This document shows, one piece after another, positions 29,291 through 64,000 of a stretch of 64,000 nucleotides of DNA (positions within the stretch are counted from its first letter, which is position 1; each line of letters opens with the position of its first letter). Source of the DNA: Picocystis sp. L7 (Eukaryota; Chlorophyta; Picocystophyceae; Picocystales; Picocystaceae); NCBI GenBank assembly GCA_020975725.1, contig QXJR01000005.1, positions 62,001 through 126,000 of the forward strand, given 5' to 3'. A model generated the notes under the pieces. It saw only the letters and a program-made list of their open reading frames with translations. It ran no database searches and was not told where the DNA came from. The position numbers and the translations under genes are program-made.

Positions 29291-31481
29291 ACCATACACT
29301 CCACAACAAAATGGAAACGCAGAACGATATAACAGGACAATTCTGGAAAAAGTGCGCGCAGTGCTCTTTGATGGTGGTCTGGACAAACGTTTTTGGAACT
29401 TTGCCGTGGAATATTGTGCTCTTGTCAGAAACCGTGTGCCTTGCAAACCTCATGGCCGTACACCCTACGAAGCAGTTTTTGGTCACAAACCGGATGTTTC
29501 CAATATGCACATATTTGGTGAGACGTGTTATGTGCTGAAGAATCCAACTGAGACCACTGGAAAAATGGATGCAAAAAGTAAGCCTGGTCATTTCGTTGGA
29601 TTCGAGCCTGGAACAAAAGACACGTACCGTATTTGGTGTGGTGAAAAATTGGTACTGTCCAGAAACGTCACTTTTCTTGGTGTGGCAGAGAAACCTACAA
29701 CATCGCCAGATGACACTCAGGAAGACATAACGCCTATGCCTACCGCGTCCGAAACATTGGAAACTGTTTCGTTGGGGGAGAGGCAGAACAGTACAATTGA
29801 AAATGTGGAATTACCAGAGCACGAAACAACCGAGGGAATGGAAGATTTAGAAAATATCAGCAATACCGCTGCTGAAGAAAGGCGCTACCCACTTCGTGAA
29901 CGTCGTCCACCACCGCCATATTGGACTGCAAATGCCTGCTTGACAGAACCTTTGACCTTGGATGAGGCTTTAGGTAGCCCCCAGCACGATGATTGGAAAC
30001 TGGCCTTGCAGGAAGAAGTATCCAGTTTGAGCGAGCAGGATGTTTTTGATGTGGTGGACCGAACACCTGAGATGAAGACTCTGCCTTGCAAGTGGGTCTT
30101 CAAGGTGAAATACGACCAAGATGGGAACATCCAACGCTTCAAGGCTCGCCTGGTTGCCAAAGGATTCAAACAGGTGGCTGGAATTGATTTTGGTGAAACG
30201 TTTGCACCGGTGGCAAAACAGAGCACTTTACGTTTGTTGTGGACCTTGGCTGCTAAACGAGACTGGGAAGTCGAGAACATTGACATCAAAACGGCTTTCC
30301 TCAACGGTGATCTCGACGAAGAAATCTACATGGATATGCCCCCTGGTTTTCAGGTGGATGGCAAAGTTTGGAAATTGAAAAAGACCCTGTATGGTCTTAA
30401 ACAAGCCCCACGTGCCTGGCACATCAAACTCACGGATGTTTTGGAAAAGCTTGGATTCAGATGCTCCACTGCAGATCCGGGCTTATACGTGGGTGAAGAC
30501 GTGTTGCTGATGGTCTACGTCGATGACCTGTTGCTATGTGGAAAGGGCAGATCAAAAGTGGAAAATGTCAAGCAATCCTTGCTGACCACCTTTGAAGGCA
30601 GAGACCTCGGGCCCACGGATCACTTTCTAGGAATTAAAATGGAACGTGATCGAACTGGAAAAACGGTTTTCCTCAGTCAAGAGACCTACGTGAACAACGT
30701 GCTGGAAAGGTTCAGAATGGCAGATTGCTACAGTGTCTCTACGCCATTGGAACCTGGAACAAAATGGACCTCAGATGCATCAGCGACAGAATCCAACTTC
30801 CCATACCAGGAATTGGTTGGGTGCCTGATGTACTTGGCAGTGTCCACAAGACCAGACATAGCTTATGTGACCAATCGTCTGGCCCGCTATGTCTCTGCAC
30901 CAACCACCAATCACGTGGCCGAGGCCAAGAGGGTCCTGAAATACCTGAATGGCACAAAGGCAGTTGGTATCTTGCTGGGTGACAGCTCCCCAAGTTTGCT
31001 GGAAGGCTATTGTGATGCCAATTACGGAGGATGTGAAGAAACCAGACGTAGCACAACTGGCTACGTGTTCACTTTGCACGGCAGTTTGGTTTCCTGGCAG
31101 ACGAAATTGCAGAAAACAGTTGCCGTGTCCACGACGGAGGCCGAGTATATGGCTGCTGCTTCTGCAGCAAAAGAAGCGTTGTACCTGAGAAAGGTGTTGA
31201 ATGATATTGGATTTGGGGCCCAATGTATCACCATTCATTGTGACAATCAAGGTGCTGTGAACTTGACGAAGAACACTCTGACCGTGTCTCGTACGAAACA
31301 CGTCGACATCGCACACCATTTTGTGCGGAACCGCGTGAGTCGGGGAGAGCTGAAATTCCAGTACATCAGCACAAATGACCAGCTGGCAGATTTCCTGACC
31401 AAGGCCCTGGGGCCCACCAAGTTGCAAGCTGCATTGAAGACATTGGGCTTGTTGGAATACCAGGCCATGAGCAGGGGAGAG

Positions 31482-31776
31482 TGTTGAGGCTGCTCAAGCC
31501 CTGGTCCCTGGGAGGTCGAATCCCTTAGGGACCACGACCGAGTTTCGGTCGAGTACCTTCGAGGAGTATGGGGCCCCTGTGGGTCCTCGAAGGGCGATGC
31601 CCATTCCTGCAGTGTTCGATACCGACGAGGACCGATCCCGGTTTACTGCGAGGTCCTCTGCGGTCGATGAAGCCGCCATTGAGTGGGGATACTCACCACT
31701 CGTTCTTGCATGTAATACACAACTACGAAGGTGGCAACCCACGAACGTATCCAAAGTCAACGCCCTGCTTCTTACA
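31482..31776 (+). repeat. LTR D, distal LTR of the copia array
   Basis: 295 bases, ending CTTCTTACA before unrelated DNA (CTTGGTGCTACC). It is nearly identical to LTR B (one difference) and less like its physical neighbour LTR C (about six or seven differences). Confidence 0.95.
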
Positions 31777-34700
31777 CTTGGTGCTACCAATAGTACGTGG
31801 GGGTTCGCTTTTCTCGAACTTATCTCTGATTAATGAAGTTAAAGTTCAGCCCTACGTGTACACATCGCAATGACAATGTTGCAAATTAGTGTTTACATGC
31901 TTCTTGCATTTTGATCTCCCGCCACGAACGCAGTTGCATGAAGAAATGGAGCGTCCGCTTTTTTTTGGATTGGGCGTTCTCCTTTATTACCAAACGTACG
32001 GATGTACAAAGTGTGTGCGAATGGTTGAAAAGGACAACTTTTAAGACAACAACATTATGTCTTGCTCATAAAGTTCACGAGTGGAGGGCAACTGCTCGAA
32101 TTGTAAGACATGTACGTGATCTGCAAGTATATGCGCCTTGGAACTCGTACTTCAATCATAAAAATGGAATCCCGTTGGTGAAGGATGCCGGTTATGCATT
32201 GACATAATCGTTGGGTTTTTTTGCAAGGGCATGCATATTCTCGCTTTGTAAGGGAACAACATGGTGCAAGCAATGCACGAGTTCCGAGTGCCTTTGTTGC
32301 ATGAATATGCATTTGCGATCGATTACTAGGGAGTCTGGAGGAGATTGGCTATGCTAAAGGCACTCAAGTTTCTAGGATATTTTGTTTAGAGGCGCGAGAT
32401 TCGCAAGTTTCATGCCTCTAACGCAAAGCCAACAAATTATGGTGTAAATATGGCCCCTCAATAAATCGGTGATAGAAAAGGGTTCTAGCTTGCTCGAGGA
32501 ACTCTCTAATTGTTGAAAGGGCAAAGCTTTTCGGGGTACAGTTGGAAAGTTCATTAAGTACCCGCGTTTCTCCAACGTCGATGTCCATGAGCAAATGCTT
32601 AAGGAATATGTTCTAAACATTTGAGAGGATCTATTTTCATTTGTTTGCTTCGAAGAAGCATGGACTTGAAGCTCTGATCTTTGATTTTAGATTTCCTTTC
32701 CAAGTTGTCCAATTTCTACTTCTGAAAAGTCTCTATGTTGGAGCGAGGGTGCCACCAATTACACACTAACCTTGTGCTTCTAAAGTGCTCGATAACTGTT
32801 GAAGGTGTCATATGCGATCCTACAAAGTAAAAAAAACAAGTCCTTGGGAATGCTTGAAGGAAACGCAACAAAACACCAAATACTTCATAAAGTCTACATA
32901 TTTGCCATGCAAGCGCATCAACTAACTTGGATTGGGCATCGCTTGTCTCTTTGTGGACCATCATGTGAAATAAAAAACAATCATCAAGGCTACGTGATTG
33001 ACGAGGACACACTAGTATTACTTTGGCAACTGATTGCGCTATGTTGCGTTGATGTATGCATGATGAAAAATGGGCGTATTGTTCGGGAACAGTTCCGTTG
33101 GTGGTCTGTGGAAAAGCGTGACCATCACATTGGGCACAATTCACGAGGTGTTTGCACAAAACACGACTACGAACTTCTTGGAAGGTGCTTGACGTACAAA
33201 GAGGGTGCGTCTCTCGCTCTCCATACCTCCAATCCGTCATGAAGGGATTGTGGCCAAGGATCCCAAAATCAGGCACTCTTGCCGTGCCCCGTGTTCGTAG
33301 AGAACATTGGAACGACAACTTCTTGTCTTGTATGGACCACTTGTAGGAAGTAAGGACTCCCTTGTGGGTCCCTCACTTCCCACGGTTGGGGCCTTGTCTC
33401 ATTCGAACGCGTCCTACAAGGAATCAAGTTCGTGTATTCCTCGGCAAGGGAGAACCTTTGCGGGTTCCCCATATGAAAAATGTCCCTTCGCTTGTAAACT
33501 TGGTATCCCACATGTGAACACTCACGTGCTCGCGTGCGTCCCGGTTCTACTTCTTCTCGCTTGTTTGCTTCTCTTCACCGCGTACAACCTTGCATTGCTT
33601 ACTTAGGAGAAAACTAGGCCAGACACGTCTTTAGTGCAGACATAGCAAATCGATCCTACCGGGAGATTTCTGAATACGTTGAAGCCGATGCCAACGGCGG
33701 AAGGGCATTTCAATGTACAATTAGTGCGAGCCACGGTGGAGTAAGACCAAAGAATCCTTTCGCGTGAAGATGGAAGATCCCCTCTCTTTGTTGAAGAAGC
33801 GAGCTTGTTGATGGTCCCTATTACGAATAGCCTTGTTTTTTCGCGTTATTGTAGTAGACAACGAATCCAAATTCCTCGGTCCCATCCAAACAGATAACGA
33901 GGGTGTGGTACTGCGACCTTAATGGTATCGCAATATTGGTTCTTGTGCCGCACTTTTTGAGTATTTTGTAGTATGAAAACAAGATCATCACAACTGTACA
34001 TTGCCGTGGTCTAGGCCGATGCACCTCATCCACTCCGGGCAATGTGGGGAGCAACCGGAGTCTCCTGGCATGACGGACATGTTGGTTGTCGAACTAAACT
34101 CTTCGTTGGTTTCACCCCGACATGTCTTTAATCATGCCTTTGTGGAGTGGGCAATCAACGTGGTTCTTGGAGTGAAATGAATGGACGGGGAAATACCATG
34201 GGTTTGCAATGTATCCGTACAAGTGTTGCTTTTTGCCCCGATTCTCATCTTGTTCATTATTGTTCCTTACAATTTCTCCGCATCAATGAGCACCGCAAAG
34301 ATGCAGACAAACACTGTATGGTGTTGTTGCCCAACGATGTCAAATTCCCGAGAAGGCACGGTCGATTGTGGCCGCCAAAGGTAAATTATGCACTAGACAA
34401 GCTCGTGTTACCGTTCCGTAGAAAAGAATCTCTTTCAGCTGCTGCCTCCTGGGTCCTCACTGTCCACATTATGAGGATGGCGCGACACTTGTCTCGATAG
34501 GGTCTAGGCCGTTGGTACCACGACCATCTCGATGTGGGGATGATCCAATAGTCTAAATGGGATGAACTACATCACTGACAGCAGTCGCCGAGTTAGTGAG
34601 CACCTTCATTGTGAAAAAGCGAAGGAACGGAATCAACAACACAACAGGCAACGTGGCGGGTCATCCTTGCTCGAGGACGATTCGTTTGACGCGACGACAG

Positions 34701-52851: not shown

Positions 52852-54876
52852 TCAGCTCTCCAATTGCCTCATAGCAGGTTTCCACCGGGACCCATCTTGA
52901 GCGCCATCCATCAGCATGATTCCTTGTGCAGCCAACTCATCCCGTATGCAATCAGAGAGCTCAAAGTTTTTGCTTCTCCTAGCTTCCAGCCTCTTTTCCA
53001 AAATCTGTTCCAGTTGCTCTTCATCCATCCCTGCCCGCTCAAGGGCAAGGGCTCGCATTTCAGAGAGGACAAGATCTGGGTCTTCCATGTACATCCCAAG
53101 ACAGTCAACAGAAGCTTCTAGGGCTCTGAGGTTGGCGCGCATTCGAGGAAAGCGGTCTTTCGCTTTCCTTCCTTTCTTTGTGTGAAGAAGATCGTTTAGG
53201 ATCTTAAGAGGTTGTGAAATTGCTCCAATCGCAAGAGGAGTATTCAGATCGTCTGCAAGAGCATGTAGCACTGTTTCTACGAGTGCTATTCCTTCCTTCG
53301 ATGCTTCCTCTTCGGCCCTCCTTTCTACCTCGCATGTGGTTGTTAGGGAGTACCCTGTAACAGGGTCTTGCAACAGTTCTCTACGAACGTCTGCCATGGT
53401 CTGGTAGAGGTAGAAGGAGCGTTCCGATGCCTCCTCCAATGCTCTCTGCGTGTAGTTTATTGCCGATCTGTAGTGCGTTCCGACCAGAAACCACCGCAGT
53501 GCTAGGCTATGATACTTGCGAAGGACTTCCTTTATAGTAAAAAAGTTCCCAAGAGACTTGGACATTTTTTTCGCTATCCACGTTACGAAGCCATTGTGCA
53601 TCCAAAAATTGGAAAAACTGTTGTGATCCGTCTTGCACCCACAAGAAGCTTCACACTGAGCGATCTCATTTTCGTGATGAGGAAACATGAGGTCCACCCC
53701 ACCACCATGGATATCAATCCTCTGTCCCAAGAGTGACTGAACCATAGAGCTGCATTCAATGTGCCAACCTGGGCGGCCCCTCCCCCAGGGACTATCCCAC
53801 CACGGCTCCCCAGGTTTCGCTGACTTCCAAAGTGCAAAGTCTGATGCATCACGCTTACCGCTGCCAATGCCACCTTGGTCCATTGAGTTGACATTCGGTT
53901 CAGAACTTTGCTTGAATTCTCTTTCTATTTTCGCACACACCTCGGCACTGACTGAGGACTCCACTGTTGCTTCTTTTTCAGCTTGCAGCATTTCCATCTC
54001 CGCTCTTTCACGTGCACGCTGGCCGGCCCCTGCTTTATTGTCTTCTTGCTCCCTCATGGCCAGCTTCTTCCCGTAAGCTGGCAGCGTTCCCACTGCGAAG
54101 TAGACATCTCCAGAGTTTGGCACGTAGTAACCATGCCCATTTTCAACGATGCGTTGGATCATGTCTACAGCTTCCTTGATATGATGGGTTGCTCTGGGCT
54201 CCATGGTTGGTGGCAGGCAGTGCAGTCTCTCCATGTCCTGCCTAAAGGATTGGTAATACGTTTCCGCCAGCTGCTCTGTAGATTCTTTTCTTTCTTGCGC
54301 CCTGGCGATGATTTTGTCGTCGATGTCGGTGACGTTCCTGCAATATTGGACCTGGTACCTGGCCTTCCTGAGCACACGGTAGAGCACATCGAAGGCCACA
54401 TAGGCTCTGGCATGTCCCACGTGTGCGTGATCATAGACTGTGACTCCGCATACGTACATGGTGACCCTACCAGGTGTTATGGGATTGAACTTTTCCTTGG
54501 TTCGTCCCAGGCTGTTGTACAAGTGAAGGTGATCCTGCAGGATACTCGAAGCACGCGTGGGATCCACGCCCTCCAGCACGGACAATCGGTCCGAATGGTT
54601 TTTGGAAACCGTTCCTTCCGATCCATGTACAACCGTCTTGGAATGCGAAGACAAAGCATACGAAGCGAAATTGTGAGAGGTAGATCCAACACGTTTTCCT
54701 CCGTGTCTGGTGCAGACCAGACAGCTGCGGTTGAAAGTGTCAGACGCAGTCCACCACGTGCGTGGACGTGTCCACCTGTCGAAGGAACTCCTCGATCCAC
54801 TCCTTGCTGGATGGATGGATCCAACACGTGTGCGAAAAGGCGCCATGGCCGCACAAGCACGCGGCAGGCGGTCCAT
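52852..54876 (-). CDS. cysteinyl-tRNA synthetase, probably organellar or dual-targeted
   Basis: 674 residues from the ATG at 54876; a second ATG at 54846 is also possible. Class I signatures: HVGH at 152-155 (HIGH), KMSKS at 437-441. Zinc-site residues are Cys143 (YVCGVTVYDHAHVGH), Cys375 in HIECS, and the His pair of FPHHENEIAQCE. The first 120 residues are basic, Ser/Thr-rich and unlike the catalytic core, so probably a targeting peptide. A charged insertion of about 70 residues (271-339, rich in Glu/Lys/Ala) splits the catalytic domain before DFALWK. The C-terminal helical domain ends with a usual DALR-like fold. It attaches cysteine to tRNA-Cys. No intron is seen. Confidence 0.95.
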   Translation of the reverse strand: MDRLPRACAAMAPFRTRVGSIHPARSGSRSSFDRWTRPRTWWTASDTFNRSCLVCTRHGGKRVGSTSHNFASYALSSHSKTVVHGSEGTVSKNHSDRLSVLEGVDPTRASSILQDHLHLYNSLGRTKEKFNPITPGRVTMYVCGVTVYDHAHVGHARAYVAFDVLYRVLRKARYQVQYCRNVTDIDDKIIARAQERKESTEQLAETYYQSFRQDMERLHCLPPTMEPRATHHIKEAVDMIQRIVENGHGYYVPNSGDVYFAVGTLPAYGKKLAMREQEDNKAGAGQRARERAEMEMLQAEKEATVESSVSAEVCAKIEREFKQSSEPNVNSMDQGGIGSGKRDASDFALWKSAKPGEPWWDSPWGRGRPGWHIECSSMVQSLLGQRIDIHGGGVDLMFPHHENEIAQCEASCGCKTDHNSFSNFWMHNGFVTWIAKKMSKSLGNFFTIKEVLRKYHSLALRWFLVGTHYRSAINYTQRALEEASERSFYLYQTMADVRRELLQDPVTGYSLTTTCEVERRAEEEASKEGIALVETVLHALADDLNTPLAIGAISQPLKILNDLLHTKKGRKAKDRFPRMRANLRALEASVDCLGMYMEDPDLVLSEMRALALERAGMDEEQLEQILEKRLEARRSKNFELSDCIRDELAAQGIMLMDGAQDGSRWKPAMRQLES

Positions 54877-54886
54877 GGCCCAGCAG

Positions 54887-54938
54887 CAGACACACCCACG
54901 ATGCCCAGACACACCCACGATGCCCAGACACACCCTCG
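54887..54938. repeat. 19-bp tandem repeat at the CysRS 5' end
   Basis: About 2.7 copies of CAGACACACCCACGATGCC lie just upstream of the CysRS start at 54876. The repeat keeps the frame open upstream of the ATG. Confidence 0.85.
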
Positions 54939-55614
54939 TTTCCGTCCGTACGACAGGGGACTACTGCTGTAGTGCGATTGTCCCGATCGACACTCCTTTC
55001 GAGACACACCCCAGCCTCATCCGAAGTGTCGAAACGGGGAAGTTTCTAGCATCCGGAGAAAAAGACTTGCATGGAGAGGAATGACACCATGACCAGGTAC
55101 GTCCATGAGCTCACGCCTCGCACACGGTGCCGTTGATCCATTCATAGACATGCACATGTCGAGAAAATGATTCGTCTGATGATGAAAACACACCAAGTAC
55201 AACCGGGATGTTGCTCGATCATTGGAACGGCATGGGTCCCCGCCCATGACAACGTAGGTATAGAAGTGCGCAATCTTTCGGGAAGTGGAGAACGTAGCTG
55301 TCACATATGCTCCGATCTATGTACATGTGATGTCCGAATGATAGGTTGCGATGATCGCCCTCCTCAATTGTGGCGTTTCGCATTATTCCACGCCTACAAT
55401 CCGTTTCGAAGAAGGTAACCTCAATACAAACAGAATTGATTGTGTGGCGTATAGCTTAGAGGTGCTTCTCGAGAGAAGAGATACTCAATAAATTAGGTAA
55501 GGGTTAAGGTGGCGTGGATGTAATACTTATTCTATCATTTTACCATGTCCATTGGGACGCCCTTGTAAACACCTAAAATGGCATAGGCTACACCCCCCTT
55601 AGTGAAGTGAGTGG
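54939..55614. other. CysRS 5' flank and degraded DNA
   Basis: The first 100-150 bases should hold the CysRS promoter. At 55,167-55,418 a plus-strand frame contains TAWVPAHDNVGIEVRNL, which faintly resembles the WVPGH...GNE..AD motif of LINE-type RNase H; this is too short to assign. The remainder is AT-richer with no recognisable feature. Confidence 0.35.
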
Positions 55615-56273
55615 TGTAGCGTCCGACTGATGTGGCACGTGCTCAGGGTCTCACCAGCACCGAAAAGAGCGTCGTTTGAAGGTGGCGAAGTGGAGGAGGC
55701 GTGGGGAAGGCGGTAGCTCTTCCGAAAGAAAGCAAGTGAACTAAAAAGACAAAGGGAGGGACCTAGGGGTCTACCTCTCTCTCAACCGCCCTTGAGCGGT
55801 TGAAGACAGCCTGGCGGGGCTCCCCAACTGCCCACGTGGGGGGCGGGCGATGCATTGGATGGTCCCGAAGGGTCGTTTCCAAGCGACCCTGGCCTGTCCG
55901 TCGCATCGCCACCGTTGGGTTGCCCCAGCCCTACCTTCTAGAAGGGATTGAGGGAAGGGATTCCAAACACCACAACCCTTCAATCCCGGTCTGTTCCGTT
56001 CGAGTCCTCGATGGGGAGGTCCCTTAGTAAGGGGCGAGTCCCCTTACTACAAGGGTTCTGACCGGACCAGGTCTCGACCCAACTTGGAGAGGGGTTCGAA
56101 GGGGCCCTCTCATGGATAGGGCCTCTAGGGCCTACATTCTCCTGGTTCCTGTCACTAACTGACACACCTAAGCATGATTGAAATCATAAATGTAACTGAT
56201 GGGGTCATAGAGCATAGTCTGAATTTCTGCCACGGTATGTGTTGATTCATATCCATCTGTCCATAGCACACGG
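55615..56273 (-). mobile_element. gypsy retrotransposon fragment (3' end, minus strand)
   Basis: Read on the minus strand: the last ~135 bases of a pol region (AEIQTMLYDPISYIYDFN, against AEIRAMLYDPISYVYDFL in the neighbouring element), a purine-rich tract, then a 522-base LTR (TGTAGGCCCTAG...GGACGCTACA, 55615-56136). The LTR shares blocks such as CTTCTAGAAGGTAGGGCTGGGG and the terminal GGACGCTACA with the neighbouring LTR but is clearly diverged. It is a relative, not a copy, of the element at 56274, and is broken and incomplete. It ends exactly where the next LTR begins. Confidence 0.88.
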
Positions 56274-56855
56274 TGTAGCCTAGCAGGGACCCTACGAGAC
56301 CCTGCGTGAAGACCCCGAGACTTTGGGGAGTAAAAGGGCAGTCATTGCCTTACTGCTCCCTACTACCGTTATACCATAGATCCGGGTCTGGATTGAATGT
56401 GGGTCAACAGAGCCCGGGAATAGATGCAGAACGCCCCGGGTCAATGGACATGTTTCAGTAAGGGATGAAGGGAACCCTTGACCGGTAGAGTTGAGTCGAA
56501 AGGATTCCCTTTCCCCGTGTACTTCTAGAAGGTAGGGCTGGGGAGGCTGGACGGTGTCGATGACTCGGACAGCTGGCGGACGCCCCACGGCTGGCTGCAC
56601 GGACGGTCAGATTTGACCGTCAGCAGCACGTGGACCCTCCTTGTGCCCCACTTGCCCTCATCTCAACCGCCACTGAGTGGTTTTGAGAGACGGACCTCCA
56701 GTCCATCTCTTTGCCTTGCAATTCACTTTTCTACTTGTCCTCCGAGACGACCTCCTCGCCTCATCAGCCTCTTCCAGGACCTCAACGACTGCTGAGAGCC
56801 GCAACTCGCTCGTTGCACAAGTGTCCCCTGTCTGCGACCCTACTTGGACGCTACA
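56274..56855 (+). repeat. 5' LTR of the gypsy element
   Basis: 582 bases, TGTAGCCTAGCAGG to GGACGCTACA. It starts directly at the end of the minus-strand gypsy fragment. Confidence 0.96.
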
Positions 56856-59800
56856 TTGTCGAAGCCTCGCTTGGCGATGAGCGACTCGGAGGAAGAATTC
56901 CTCTCCGGAACCGCCACACGAATGCAACGGTTGAGAGGTGAATTGGAACGTGAGCAACAAGCTCGATCCGTCCTTGCTCAGCAAGTGGAGGAGTTGGAAA
57001 GTCAACTACGTCGTTTGCGTAACGACACCCCCGCTCAAGACCCGCAAGTGCAAGAAGAAGAACCGCTTGGGGAAGAGGATCTCCCTCGCGAGGACAATGG
57101 ACCTACTCCACCATCAGTTGAACCCAATGAGAAGGCAGCTGGGAATGCTTCCCACCTGGCTATGCAACCATTGAGCCAACAAGGACTTCATTCACTCACC
57201 AAGATGTACCAAGCTATGGAAGGCTCCCACCGGTTGCAAGGAGTGGCATTGTCCAAGCCAAAAAGCTTCTCTGGAACGGAAGTGATAGATGACCCATATG
57301 CACTCACCCACTGGTATAGGGAGGTTGCTTGTTGGGTTGAAGGTTACGCGAGCGATCCAACTCAGCAGGTAGTACTAGCTCTCCAGACCTTGACAGGCAC
57401 AGCCCGCATCATGGTCGATAATATTATCATGGCTGATCGGGAGCGCGTTCCAAACTTACCGTCTCTCTTCAGTCTACTCAAGGAGACCTTTCAAAGAAGA
57501 GACCCAGGGCCTGATGCTTGGAAAGAATTTCAGCGGGCTCGTTTACGTCAAAACAAGGAGAATGTGATCACTTACTTGAACCGCCTCCTTCTTCTGAGTT
57601 TTGTGATTAATATGAGCGATGACCCCACCTGTCCAAGGGTTGATGAGGATGACATCGCCACCAGGTTACGCATCGGCCTGCCATATGACAGTGGCAATAA
57701 GGTGGAGCAACACATGCAACTGATGGTTGATTTGGAACGCAAGCCAGATGTGTCCCCATGGGGCATAGCAGCCATCGCATTGAAAGTGGAAGCCCAGGAC
57801 AGAGAGAAAGCTCGGCGTGTTTCACGCACGGTCAGGCCGCTCAATCAAAATGGTCATGGAGCCAAATCTGTGGCCACTGTCCATGCCTTACCTCAGAAGG
57901 AAGGGAGCTACCGCCCCAACGTACGATCGATCGAAGGACGGGCCGCCAAGCGATTCAGAGATTTATCGGAGGAACTTCAAAAAGGATAGTGGCTGCGCAG
58001 ACACAGATGAAAAGTCTGCCTTTGGGAGCCAGTCTTTCTCAAGACCAACTTCAACTCTGTCAGAGTAATTCCTTGTGCATCAAGTGTAGACGCTACGGGC
58101 ATGACGCAAAACATTGCCGTCACACCCAGCCAATGATGCCAAAAAACTGAACAGGCTCCTCCCGACGGAAGAGGCCGTCGGGATGGAGCCAGGAGAGGTG
58201 CCACCCGCAAGCGCGAGGTCTGATCCGTTGACTCTCAACAACTTATACCCAGATCAGGTGGTAACCTTACGAGCGTCGCCAAACCCTCGCCCCGTTGTGA
58301 GTTCCTCACAGCCAGCAGTACTATTGGACCTACAGGTCCTACTGACCTGTCCACACAGGCGTACGTGGACACGCTTGCCAGCAACTCCTTCTTAAGCATT
58401 CATTACCTTGAAAAACTGAAGAAGCATGACCCAACACAGCAGAATTGGAGGCCTACTGGCCAATACTTTGATTTCAGCCTAGCAGTAGGGACAGAAGTGC
58501 ACCAGGCCCAAGTTATTCAAGCACAGATTACAATCGATACCTTTCAGGTGAGTCATTATTTTGGTGTGGCCCCCATTGAGACCTTTGAATGCATACTAGG
58601 TGTCGACTTCTGCCACCTCTTCTTGCTGCACATAAACTGGCAGCATCAGTACATGGAACTTAAACATCCAGATGGGACAGTTCATAAAGTACAGGGCGAC
58701 ACAGCATTTTTAAAAGCCCGTAAACTTGACCTTATAGTGCCCCCCTCTGAAATCAAAGAGGCCATGCAAACAGAAGGATGTTTATTACTAATGGTGCAAC
58801 CTCTTGATGTCACCTGTGAGCTAACATCTGAAGAACTAGAAACTTCGACCTTCCGCAGTAAGCTCAGTGATGCCTGCACGCTGTCACCCAACGAACAAGA
58901 GAGACTGCAGAAGCTGCTCAGCAAGTACGCGCTCTGCTTTGAAAAGCGTACCACCTTACCTTGCGAACGCGTACCCGGTGAGTCATTCAAGATTCAGCTG
59001 GAACCTGGTACTCAGCCGGTGCATCGCAACTATTATCGGTTGTCCCCACAACAGCAGGATGCTCTACGCGAACTGCTGACCGAATACGTGGACGTTGGGA
59101 AAATGGATGTCTGTGCGGGATCGAGTTGGGGGGCACCTGTCCTCCTCATCCCAAAGAAGGATGGGGGGTGGAGGGTCGTGTTCGACTATCGAATGCTAAA
59201 TGCAGCCACAATTAAGGACCGCTACCCGTTGCCGCGAATAGATGACCACCTGCAGAACTTGAGAGGGTCAAGTATCTTCTCATCAGTAGACGCCCTAGAC
59301 GGCTTTCACCAGCTTCCCATGAATGGAGAAGATGTTGACAAGACAGCAGTTGTTACTCCTTTCGGCAGCTATGTATGGAGGGTTATGCCAATGGGTCTGG
59401 CCAATGCCCCTGCAATGTTCCAGAGAATGATGAATCGAATTTTTGGGGCATTGCCCTTTTTAAAGGTCTATATGGATGACATATTGATACACTCTGTAGA
59501 TCAAGAGAAACACTTTGAACATTTGGAAGACTTCCTCGAGGTATGCCAGCGTAACGACATACGACTGAAAGAGTCAAAATGTCACTTCTTCCACCGAACG
59601 CTGGAATGGGTAGGTTTTCGCATACATGCTGGCCAGCTCAGTTGTGCAGACCATTTGGTGGAGCGCATACAAAAGTTCCCTAAACCTGTCACACACAAAC
59701 AAAACTTAGCATTCCTGGGACTTTGTCAATTCTACATGCGTTTTGTACGCAATTATGCAGAGATTGCTTCACCTCTTACAGAGCTCACTCGCAAACAGTA

Positions 59801-60299
59801 CCGCCACGACTTCTGTCGTTTCTGGAAGGCTCAACATGACCAGGCCTTTGAACACCTTGTGCGTATGCTCACTACTGGACCTATTTTACAGTTATTTGAT
59901 GAAGACCGGCCTATACGCGTTGAGACTGACGCTTCGGATTTGGGTATGGGGGCTGTACTACTACAAGAAACCTCCCCCAACACCTGGGAACCAGTTGAGT
60001 ATTACTCTAAAAGTTCAATTCAGCACAAGAAACTATCATCCAGCAGAGAAGGAGACTTGTGCTATCGTCTACGCTCTGCAGCATTGGCGGCACCTTCTCT
60101 TTGGACAGAGATTCACTGTCCTTACAGACAACAAAGCCAGCATGTACTTGCAAAGCAAGTCCGCAGAACAACTCAGTCCCCGGGATCAGCGCTGGACGGC
60201 GAAGTTGGCATACTTTGCACCTTTCGCTGTCGAGTACCGCCCAGGATCTCAAAATATCACTGCAGATTACTTATCGCGCAACCCCCCTAGCACAGGTCC

Positions 60300-61165
60300 T
60301 CCCATCATCCGGATTTTAGACTTATGTGCAGGTATGGGCACAGTCCTTCGAGCTCTGTGGCATCTCATACCAACTGGCTATCCAATACAAGTTGATTACA
60401 TAGCAGTCGAAATAGAAGAGCATGCCCGAAAGGTAATACAGAGGGTGTTTGCTGAGGTGAACCTCGGATCGACCTGGACTCTTTCACCGCACAGATATTT
60501 TCCGTTATGGCAATGATGTACGAGTATTGGCGCATCGAAGAAAGCTACCACCTGTCCACCTGCTTATCGCGGGGTACCATGCCAGCCGTTCTCCAAAGCC
60601 AATACCTCGCCAGACTACCCCAGTTATGGGCTGCGGGATGAAGAGAACTTTTTACAACGGTACATACCCTTTACAACCGACTTGGTCGACCAGATTATAT
60701 CATCGAATGTACTCCTTTTGCAGGCCACCTTTACAAAGATTTTCAGCAGGTTGCGGAAATGTTTGGAGAGCCCGCCTTACACGACATGTCCCAGTACTGC
60801 CCCAGAAAAGGAGCAGGTACTGCTGGACTTCGCTTCCGTCCAATTCACGTATATGGCATGTACCCGGTCTGCCCTTACCTGGCAAGATTGTTTGACCGAT
60901 GGAGCTACGGTTTCCTATGGCGCAATGAAACAGCCCGTTCTTAATACCCCACTTTGATGGCCACGAGTAACTCGCATAGTGACCGCAATCGGACAACATG
61001 GGTACGTAACTCAGATGGAACTGAAAGAGCGCTGACAGTTGCAGAAAAAGAGCGCTTGGTTGGGATGGAAATTGGAGACACAGCTGCCGAGAATGTCTCA
61101 ACAAGCAGGCGACATCGGTTGTGCGGCAATGCATTCCCCGTAGCGTGGATAGCCAACCTTCTGGA
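60300..61165 (+). other. C5-cytosine DNA methyltransferase segment within the gypsy element
   Basis: Lies between RNase H and integrase. Motif I (AdoMet binding) is ILDLCAGMGTVLRAL at about 60310-60355, followed by an acidic YIAVEIEEHAR strand end. Motif IV, with the catalytic cysteine, is PCQPFS at 60577-60594. Motifs IX-X are LTVAEKERLVGM and LCGNAFPVAWIANLL at about 61030-61165. Spacing and the YIA-E strand recall the DNMT3/DRM type more than DNMT1, though the PCQ is general. It is part of a broken element, so activity should not be assumed. Confidence 0.82.
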
Positions 61166-63170
61166 CCTTTACTTTAAAACACCCACAGGGACGCTTCGAC
61201 CGCTAGCTAGCCGCAGTCTCACCGAGGCTGTGTGTGTTCAAGGCAAACAGTCCAGAATCCTGTCCGCGTTAGCCGATCCGGGCAGTCCCTCTTTTGTGCA
61301 GCGCCTACGGTCCGCCGCTCTATCTGACCCTCAGTATGAGGCATGGCTGCGAACGCTGCCCCCACATTTGCGTGCCACCAATGGACTGCTTTTTGAAGTC
61401 AGCCCTCCAAATCAGATCGATGTCTTCGACGGCCCTGCTGTGGTACTGGTTCCCGCAGATGACGCCTTACGTCAGGACTTATTACACCTAGTACATGACC
61501 AGGCGCACTTCGGTGCAGAGCGTACCTTCGCAAACGCCAAGCGCCACTTCACTTGGAAAGGAATGAAACAGCATATAAATCACTTTGTCGCGCGCTGTCC
61601 AACTTGTCAGATGCAAAAACCAGGAACAACATCTAGGCACCAGCCCCTCTTTGCCGAGACTAAGTTTTATCCCTATCCATTTCACACAGTGGTAATGGAT
61701 GTGGTCGAAGGATTGCCCCTTACAGCCAAGGGCATAATGGGGTGCTTACTGTTGTCGATCGTTTACCGAAGTATGCGATCTACATTGCTATACACACTTC
61801 CTGGAGTTCTTTCCGACAAGCGCAATGCTTGCTAGATGCGCTCGTGTACCGCTTCCATACGCCGCAGCGCATTCACACTGACAATGGGCCAGCGTATCGC
61901 GACCTTTTCCAAGCATTCTGCGCTGCAATGGGAGTTCAGCATTCCACTGGAACACCGTATCATTCACAATCCCAAGGAGGTGCAGAGCGAGAGCATCGCA
62001 CTCTTTTGCAGCAGCTGCGCTTAACGTGCGATGACCGTTTAAACTGGGATGACTATTTACAGGCAGCTGCCCATGCTTATAATGACAGCGTACATGCTGT
62101 TACAAAAGTTGCGCCGTTTGTCGCTTTGTTCGGATGCCCTTCAAGGTTGCCCTGGCACTTGCAGTTCCTAACCTTACAGGACAATACAGAGAGTCTCACA
62201 GATATGATATCCACAGTAGACCAACGGGTTACTGTCCTACTAGACAAACAGCGACAATTGTACAGAACCATGCTAGAGCATTTGCATAAACAAGCTGAGA
62301 AATTCCAGGCTCTGCGTTCACAATTACCGACTCGCTCTTTCAAGGTTGGTGATCAAGTGAAAGTCCAGTATGGCCTCAAGGGGCCAACTGATAAACACAA
62401 ACTGGACCCATACTACGTCGGTCCATTCACCGTTACTGAAGACTTGGGAAAAGGGGCTTACAGGCTACAACTGCCCCCTGATTCGCCCTATTCTGACCGC
62501 TTCAATGCTGACCGTTTGGCACCGTGGTTTGATTCAGATTTAACGCTCTTCCCTTCACAAGAACCTACTGGTGCATCCACCTCCCTTCCCGTGGATGCCA
62601 ACGTGGAACCCGCCGCAATCATACAGCGCTATCTATTGAGAGACTATCAACTCTTCCCCCAACAGCCTGTTCGTTATTGGGTCAAGACAACTTCAACTAC
62701 AGAACCCTACATGTGGGTCAATGAAACTAGTGAACTACTAGATGAGTTTTTGGTGCTGGAGGAAAACAATGGTTGCATTCCCGAACAGGGCATTACTGCC
62801 TCTAACCTTGAGAAAGTGGAACAGCATAAACACCAAGTATATTTACAGTATCCAGCACCTATATTACTGAACACCTGGACTTCTTCAAAGCTACCATTCC
62901 AGACCCGACGAAGACCGACTTACAAGTCACCCCATAACCTGCAACAGGCAGTGGTGCAACAGTTGTTTCATGCCTCCGATGGCACACAAGCATACTTTCA
63001 AGGCATGGTGATTGGCACATCGGGTGAAAACTATTGCGTGCGCTGGACTGATGGGATCGAGCAAAGTTATACAGCTGCTGAGATACGTGCGATGCTATAT
63101 GACCCCATCAGTTATGTGTATGACTTTCTTCACGTCTGATGTGTCAGTGACCTGACAGGAGCCAGGAGAA

Positions 63171-63752
63171 TGTAGCCTAGCAGGGACCCTACGAGACCCT
63201 GCGTGAAGACCCCGAGACTTTGGGGAGTAAAAGGGCAGTCATTGCCTTACTGCTCCCTACTACCGTTATACCATAGATCCGGGTCTGGATTGAATGTGGG
63301 TCAACAGAGCCCGGGAATAGATGCAGAACGCCCCGGGTCAATGGACATGTTTCAGTAAGGGATGAAGGGAACCCTTGACCGGTAGAGTTGAGTCGAAAGG
63401 ATTCCCTTTCCCCGTGTACTTCTAGAAGGTAGGGCTGGGGAGGCTGGACGGTGTCGATGACTCGGACAGCTGGCGGACGCCCCACGGCTGGCTGCACGGA
63501 CGGTCAGATTTGACCGTCAGCAGCACGTGGACCCTCCTTGTGCCCCACTTGCCCTCATCTCAACCGCCACTGAGTGGTTTTGAGAGACGGACCTCCAGTC
63601 CCTCTCTTTGCCTTGCAATTCACTTTTCTACTTGTCCTCCGAGACGACCTCCTCGCCTCATCAGCCTCTTCCAGGACCTCAACGACTGCTGAGAGCCGCA
63701 ACTCGCTCGTTGCACAAGTGTCCCCTGTCTGCGACCCTACTTGGACGCTACA
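63171..63752 (+). repeat. 3' LTR of the gypsy element
   Basis: 582 bases, identical to the 5' LTR except for one substitution noticed near position 430 (CCATCTC against CCCTCTC). Confidence 0.96.
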
Positions 63753-64000
63753 GATGTTTCGCCGACGAGGGACCAGGAGTCCACCGAAACCCGTCGAACG
63801 GACGAGGCTGGAGCGAATTTCGTTTCGAAACACGCTCTTGTATTACAAAGGAGAGATTCCGACGTTCGAAGCCCGAAAAACGATCGCCCTTATGTCCCTT
63901 CGATCGCGTCGGTCGCGGTCGGGCCGACCTCCATGGCGTCGGCCGTCCGTGGCCCTGCGTCGCACGGGTCGTACGCGGAGCCACGGGCGCGCGAAACGCT
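63753..64000. other. GC-rich flanking DNA at the window edge
   Basis: 248 bases, CG-rich (CGGTCGCGGTCGGG, ACGGGCGCGCG). No gene is recognised. It does not continue the minus-strand gypsy fragment found on the other side of the element. Confidence 0.5.

Follow-up and report, generated by a model that had tools for sequence, protein, structure and literature searches.

A Ty3/gypsy retrotransposon of a small-genome green alga with a DNMT3-like cytosine methyltransferase inserted in pol between the RNase H and the integrase

The window analyzed here, a 64,000-nucleotide stretch of the Picocystis sp. L7 genome (contig QXJR01000005.1), contains a Ty3/gypsy long terminal repeat (LTR) retrotransposon at positions 56274 to 63752, in which a C5-cytosine DNA methyltransferase (DNMT) lies between RNase H and integrase. 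The element and all of its features given below are on the plus strand. The 5' LTR (56274 to 56855), with the ends TGTAG...CTACA, and the 3' LTR (63171 to 63752) are each 582 bp long and share 99.83% identity, with one mismatch in 582 positions. The gag region (56796 to 58150) is read as two overlapping stop-to-stop frames (56796 to 57989 and 57731 to 58150) with a frame change between them, and the window sequence and its frames contain a CCHC zinc knuckle, CIKCRRYGHDAKHC, at 58076 to 58117. In a near-identical copy on contig C18, referred to as the C18 copy, gag is a single frame of 451 amino acids. The pol region encodes a reverse transcriptase (RT) (59148 to 59624; PF00078, E value of 2.4e-35), an RNase H (RH) that spans a frame break (59823 to 60216; PF17919/PF17917), the DNMT3-like domain (60310 to 61178), an integrase (IN) with a zinc-binding domain (61458 to 61622; PF17921, 1.3e-18) and a core (61742 to 61966; PF00665, 1.2e-11), a Tf2-1-like SH3 domain (62381 to 62521; PF24626, 1.6e-9), and a C-terminal tail (62909 to 63136). 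Domain profiles and the LTR comparison thus reveal LTRs, gag, and a pol with the order RT-RH-IN, as in Ty3/gypsy elements, and Ty3 is the nearest solved structure to the RT-RH of the C18 copy (1.8e-81; next family, 8r0s, 7.2e-51). A preliminary description of this DNA had likewise placed a DNMT between the RNase H and integrase of a gypsy element. The protease site in lineage A pol (see below; e.g., L049) reads Asp-Thr-Leu, and that of protein P0026 reads Asp-Ser-Leu; the protease site of retroelements is usually DTG or DSG.

In the window copy, the DNMT is split over several open stretches. Motifs I (ILDLCAG, 60313 to 60333), IV (PCQPFS, 60577 to 60594), and X (GNAFP, 61125 to 61139) fall in three separate stretches and two reading frames, the stretches being separated by stops and shifts of frame. 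The check first proposed for the domain, a search of the window's own frames with the Pfam DNA_methylase profile (PF00145), did not by itself reach significance (best piece, 11.8 bits against a cut-off of 22; E value of 0.16), and the window locus is absent from the 121 matches of this profile in the genome. A profile of relatives (alignment A1, from which the window was left out) matches the window pieces (L009 and L029) at 79.9, 71.4, 81.0, 54.9, and 113.5 bits. In the C18 copy, the domain lies within a single open pol of 1,680 amino acids and exceeds the PF00145 cut-off (29.6 bits, 6e-7), as do related copies. The DNMT is therefore confirmed as genuine, since the relatives' profile recognizes the window pieces and the open pol of the C18 copy passes the Pfam cut-off. 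Chance resemblance is ruled out by these two matches, and a non-C5 methyltransferase is ruled out by profile and fold comparisons. The location first given for the domain, 60300 to 61165, was right; the domain spans about 60310 to 61178 and so extends a little past it.

The window and C18 copies are 99.67% identical over 7,226 aligned columns and differ by 11 substitutions and by 13 gaps of one base each; 12 of these gaps lie in runs of at least two of the same base, a low bar. Gaps that outnumber substitutions and occur mostly in base runs are common in long-read errors. Because the window copy shows this pattern, its broken frames may not be biological and are perhaps sequence errors. The sequence left of the 5' LTR is identical in the two copies, and window positions 30000 to 34000, 52855 to 54960, and 55000 to 56273 each have a second, approximately 100% identical place on C18, with the order kept. 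The window copy is a duplicate of the C18 insertion, not an independent insertion. Window positions 30000 to 63752 correspond to C18:5962-39723 as a segmental duplication, a retained haplotype, or an assembly duplicate. ACGG borders the C18 element at either end, a candidate for the 4- to 6-bp target-site duplication of Ty3/gypsy elements; matching flanks are absent from the window copy, in which rearrangement or misjoining has altered the right junction. From position 63753, exactly at the LTR end, the window continues into a repeat that is matched 40 times, often close to contig ends, which points either to duplication and rearrangement of the segment or to a joining of two places in the assembly. 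A separate repeat of about 1.78 kb at window positions 30000 to 31777 recurs, completely or in part, with some 40 or more matches across the genome. No tRNAs were found in the window.

Related elements were assigned to lineages A (P0001 to P0004), B (P0005), C (P0181 and P0183), D (P0182), and E (P0026, drawn from the protein database). The genome searched comprises 20,525,659 bases in 30 contigs, and since the searches score only the best candidates, all copy counts are lower bounds. A piece covering the DNMT C terminus and integrase gave at least 140 matches at no fewer than 132 places in this genome. A second piece, covering RNase H and the DNMT start (143 matches, of which 8 covering only about query residues 1 to 105 were dropped and 135 used), lies upstream on the same strand at 125 of the 132 places, which provides the further copies with the same domain order that had been called for. 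The gap between the two pieces is 450 to 499 bp in 117 of the 125 paired places, which indicates that both the length and the position of the DNMT are fixed. At 55 of the 132 lineage A places, pol is open over at least 1,660 amino acids, open being defined by stop-to-stop length. The RT search scored 150 of 273 candidates, and 27 of the 150 matches had no lineage A RNase H/DNMT match within 2.5 kb; three approximate lineage A positions were entered by hand for this count, and at least 1 of the 27 (C3:464513) is nonetheless lineage A. A heptamer, AAAAAAC (58141 to 58147), adjoins the gag stop of the window copy in the position of a canonical -1 frameshift signal and is a candidate for the gag-pol signal. 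It precedes TGA in all four lineage A copies inspected (L049 to L052) and was not found in that arrangement in two lineage C copies (L076 and L078).

The copies are unevenly spread. Contigs C3 and C4 hold 53 of the 132 places in 11.6% of the genome (binomial P value of 6e-17), and open copies are fewer there (8 of 53) than elsewhere (47 of 79; Fisher P value of 3e-7), P values that are rough because places on these contigs are partly nested or duplicated and not all independent. Targeting, poor purging, or low recombination would each give this concentration. The two contigs are perhaps outlier or low-recombining chromosomes.

The DNMTs of lineage A and of the mixed profile A1 are nearest to DNMT3 in the profile comparison, and the fold of the domain is also nearest to DNMT3. 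The proposed placement in a DNMT tree was achieved in part: in a tree confined to a single DNMT3, a single DNMT1, two DNMT2, and four bacterial sequences as references, the retrotransposon DNMTs grouped with DNMT3B at 84/88 support. Profile comparison with four single host DNMTs gave a probability of at most 24%, and the retrotransposon Pols P0001 and P0005 had no NCBIfam match above the cut-off. The comparison covered 40 distinct DNMT sequences with open frames, 35 from lineage A and 5 from lineage B; the 59 open domains matched by profile stem from overlapping loci and do not represent 59 copies. Fixed motif patterns occur in 34 of the 40 for motif I, 40 for IV, 40 for VI (as Glu-Cys), 35 for VIII, and 36 for X, the misses having been inspected in part. 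In lineage A, two pairs at dS values of 0.3 to 1 have dN/dS ratios of 0.088 and 0.087, and 30 pairs at dS values of 1 to 5 have a median of 0.12 (0.059 to 0.215). Six lineage B pairs at dS values of 1.39 to 1.57 have ratios of 0.067 to 0.074. These comparisons indicate that the DNMT domain is under purifying selection.

The DNMT occupies the slot between RNase H and integrase in lineages A, B, and C. Lineage D, whose RT is 54% identical to A1, has no recognizable DNMT at this site, the segment matching the DNMT profile only at E values of 0.012 to 0.014 with a single target. RT topology tests gave p-AU values of 0.174 for a grouping of A, E, B, and C without D and 0.0495 for A, E, and C without D and B. 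A position of lineage D outside the DNMT-bearing lineages would be compatible with the RT, and D may either have lost the DNMT or never have had one. Between lineages A and C (seven A and three C sequences; column bootstrap), identity is 49% (44 to 54) in the DNMT, 39% (33 to 45) in the RT, and 32% (28 to 37) in the integrase, and within lineage A the order is reversed (RT, 76%; integrase, 67%; DNMT, 63%). Because the DNMTs of A and C are more alike than their RTs and integrases, their DNMT ancestor seems to be more recent, most simply through module exchange. The DNMT has thus probably moved from one gypsy lineage to another and did not solely descend together with the RT.

Relatives also occur outside the genome. 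A search of the protein database gave 18 pol relatives, mostly on contigs of sources ena, jgi, and lgn, the best being 94% identical in the DNMT region, and viral contigs gave two distant related loci (28 to 30% identity). No entry from the protein database searches was labeled Klebsormidium nitens. Eight EukProt entries labeled Pavlova lutheri (P0019, P0029, P0031, P0033, P0036, P0039, P0040, and P0042) hold pieces of lineage A or B elements, two of them with 96% and 98% identity over 82% and 41% of the DNMT domain. The haptophyte label, set against a green algal host, may reflect contamination, mislabeling, or horizontal transfer, all of which are possible.

Some of these elements carry further chromatin- or DNA-related domains. 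The C-terminal tails of lineages A, C, D, and E align, and the window tail can be aligned with the Tudor-like tails found in C and D; taken alone, the lineage A tail is weak, with only weak Tudor_3 and Agenet matches. The Tudor domain PF21743 has 24 places in the genome, 18 of them above the cut-off, and 12 of the 24 (11 of the 18) lie 2.2 to 2.45 kb downstream, in the same orientation, of DNMT places that do not belong to lineage A, a spacing that corresponds to the end of pol, as in lineages B and C. The spacing analysis used 26 of the 121 PF00145 matches, judged not to belong to lineage A and retrieved and identified as B or C only in part, together with 59 of the 101 places of a Dam-like domain. 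This domain, PF05869, is present in lineage D (2.4e-11). In the lineage D locus L077 (C25:793500-801500), an open frame of about 2,670 codons has it at the C-terminal end, and it recurs at a distance of 8.1 kb, as though located within the LTRs. Among the 59 Dam places, 22 pairs are spaced 8.0 to 8.25 kb apart, so the Dam-like domain seems to sit in the repeated ends (LTR region) of lineage D. In lineage C (L076 and L078), a related Dam-like stretch separates the protease from the RT (BLAST E values of 6e-13 to 6e-10 against D in single-pair comparisons), and this lineage would be an element combining Dam-like, DNMT, and Tudor-like parts. The Dam-type catalytic motif is NPPY; the Dam-like part of lineage D shows HPPC in its place, which makes catalysis doubtful.

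The host is, as judged by its sequences, a green alga. The RuBisCO small subunit on contig C6 has its best solved relatives, which we take to be plants and green algae, at an E value of 5.7e-49, red-type forms scoring near 1e-11. Among the best 120 relatives of the cysteinyl-tRNA synthetase in the window, the three top identities are 97%, 67%, and 70%, and those recognized are presumably green algae and land plants. The host has a DNMT1-like gene (P0006; 1e-233 to DNMT1), a DNMT2-like gene, a DNMT with BAH and chromo domains, and a PWWP-bearing DNMT, an arrangement reported for the green lineage (PMC12344493). No DNMT3-like host gene was among the eight PF00145 loci fetched (four host genes and four B copies), the other places being partly uninspected and intron-rich genes being able to escape such a search. 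Host gene P0009 had no PDB match at an E value of 0.001.

Taken together, the element is a copy of a recently mobile, multicopy Ty3/gypsy lineage whose Gag-Pol includes a DNMT3-like methyltransferase; the enzyme would probably methylate the element's own cDNA or fresh insertion. The DNMT would be made within Gag-Pol through a -1 frameshift and would travel with RT and integrase in the particle. There it may methylate the double-stranded cDNA, or later the fresh insertion, so that a new copy would carry the mark when it enters the genome. Behind the integrase, the Tudor-like tail, which is clear in lineages B and C and weak in A, may read chromatin and bias the insertion site. Self-methylation is considered most likely because the DNMT is fused between the enzymes responsible for cDNA synthesis and cDNA insertion. 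The gain to the element may be protection, silencing, or targeting.

Several results weigh against this interpretation. The lineage B DNMT alone is nearest to HhaI rather than DNMT3 in the profile comparison, and all retrotransposon DNMTs group with DNMT3B on long branches, at no more than 84/88 support. Motif VI of DNMT3 is Glu-Asn-Val (ENV); it is Glu-Cys in these elements, and activity is thus uncertain. In lineage A, 521 of 595 pairs are saturated at synonymous sites, and 42 pairs at dS values of 0.0001 to 0.1 have dN/dS medians of 0.35 to 0.40; four close lineage B pairs (dS under 0.1) have ratios of 0.28 to 0.48, and these close pairs of both lineages point to weaker constraint. The CpG observed/expected ratio is 0.71 in the element, 0.82 in window positions 1 to 56000, and 0.60 to 0.97 in five host gene loci, an unremarkable depletion. 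In addition, RT tree forks between lineages are mostly unstarred and poorly resolved, and RT and DNMT distances correlate overall (r = 0.90; Mantel test, 15 elements). This correlation runs for a purely vertical inheritance of the DNMT with the RT, against which the A-C comparison runs; since it stays high, exchange is the exception and not the rule, and the case for it rests on the A-C comparison.

A wider reading, which we hold only tentatively, regards the DNMT as a swappable gypsy module. Present in at least three RT lineages, recombined between A and C, and joined in B and C by a Tudor-like reader, it would form a write-and-read cassette that marks the element's own DNA, steers insertion into marked chromatin, and fills C3 and C4; in the related lineage D, the LTR region instead carries a Dam-like (N6-adenine) domain. 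A rather unlikely reading is that methylation protects the element, the methylated cDNA escaping a host nuclease or deaminase or passing for DNA silenced long ago, with methylation as a passport rather than as silencing. Purifying selection and the presence of the DNMT in three lineages are in its favor, and such protection was proposed for SymbioDIRS (PMC5890265); however, lineage D elements without a recognizable DNMT live in the same genome. Self-restraint, in which the element silences its own new copies and so keeps the host alive, is unlikely: it is consistent with the crowding of copies, with fewer of them open, on C3 and C4, but that pattern would arise equally from targeting, low recombination, or selection, and the many open copies elsewhere argue against tight restraint. 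It is more doubtful still that the DNMT acts mainly in trans, methylating host chromatin so that the host methylome shifts to tolerate the element, as discussed for Symbiodinium. The high copy number in a small genome fits this idea, and a host effect was raised in the discussion of PMC5890265. However, the host keeps its own DNMT1-like and other DNMT-like genes, CpG depletion is mild in the host loci examined, and a Pol-fused enzyme would be expected to stay with the particle. A decayed chance capture without function is very improbable: although the window copy has no single open DNMT frame and falls below the Pfam cut-off, this explanation is contradicted by the fixed spacing, the open pol frames, the low dN/dS ratios, and the presence of the DNMT in other lineages. 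The earlier view that only a fossil of the system is seen here is unsupported, given the open pol frames, the dN/dS ratios of about 0.07 to 0.12 at larger distances, and the window copy being a duplicate of the open C18 insertion.

With self-methylation as the preferred reading, the element raises a general point. What a transposon gains by methylating DNA was a question left open in 2018 (PMC5890265), and a 20.5-Mb green alga with dozens of open copies would offer a small system in which to ask it. Cytosine methylation is a main defense against mobile DNA, yet in more than one lineage here selection maintains its writer within mobile elements. Over a hundred copies encode the enzyme, many of them with intact frames, and this suggests that mobile DNA is able to write the mark by which it is usually silenced. 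Epigenetic enzymes may move among retrotransposons as modules, as the apparent exchange of the DNMT and the Tudor-like and Dam-like extras suggest.

Among known systems, yeast Ty3 shares the RT-RH-IN order and is the closest solved relative in RT-RH; to our knowledge, it has neither a DNMT nor a Tudor-like tail. Elements encoding DAM and DCM, Ty3/gypsy and DIRS taken together, were reported in 2019 from stramenopiles, red algae, green algae, and charophytes (PMC6338049), so that a DNMT-bearing gypsy element of some green alga may already have been observed. In the open-licence literature, represented mostly by titles and the beginnings of abstracts, no description was found of a DNMT-bearing gypsy element in a small-genome green alga or of a DNMT and a Tudor domain in one element. 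Gypsy-10_Ec32 of Ectocarpus, to its authors' knowledge the first transposable element with a Tudor domain, is also a gypsy element with that domain at the C terminus; it differs in its stramenopile host, and no DNMT is mentioned for it in the passages concerned (PMC12477816). DNMT-bearing LTR elements were described in the preliminary description as known from a few algae and dinoflagellates, in accordance with PMC5890265. The Symbiodinium elements SymbioDIRS-Dnmt3 and SymbioLINE-Dnmt share a retrotransposon DNMT and many copies, and SymbioDIRS-Dnmt3 also has a DNMT3-type enzyme in Pol, with de novo CG methylation reported, but their backbones are DIRS (with a tyrosine recombinase) and LINE, not gypsy (PMC5890265). 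Another of the closest known systems is KnitGypsy-Dnmt3 of Klebsormidium nitens (de Mendoza et al. 2018, PMC5890265), work cited in a 2025 paper as Copia and DIRS (PMC12344493). DNMT3-bearing gypsy elements are thus already known, and the element described here is a variant of this kind. The independent capture that the preliminary description considered for a host outside the known lineages may or may not have occurred, the host being, like K. nitens, of the green lineage. KnitGypsy-Dnmt3 and the present element are both LTR gypsy elements of green-lineage hosts with a DNMT3-related DNMT in the Pol ORF, key residues kept, and purifying selection (Ka/Ks below 0.2 in the K. nitens element). The repeats of KnitGypsy-Dnmt3 are said in the 2018 paper to be DIRS-like, whereas the window copy has plain 582-bp LTRs at both ends, and because the DIRS-like arrangement was not found, the element is not filed as a member of KnitGypsy-Dnmt3. 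It differs further from the published element in its occurrence at 132 or more places in 20.5 Mb, in its several RT lineages with signs of module exchange, and in its Tudor-like tail.
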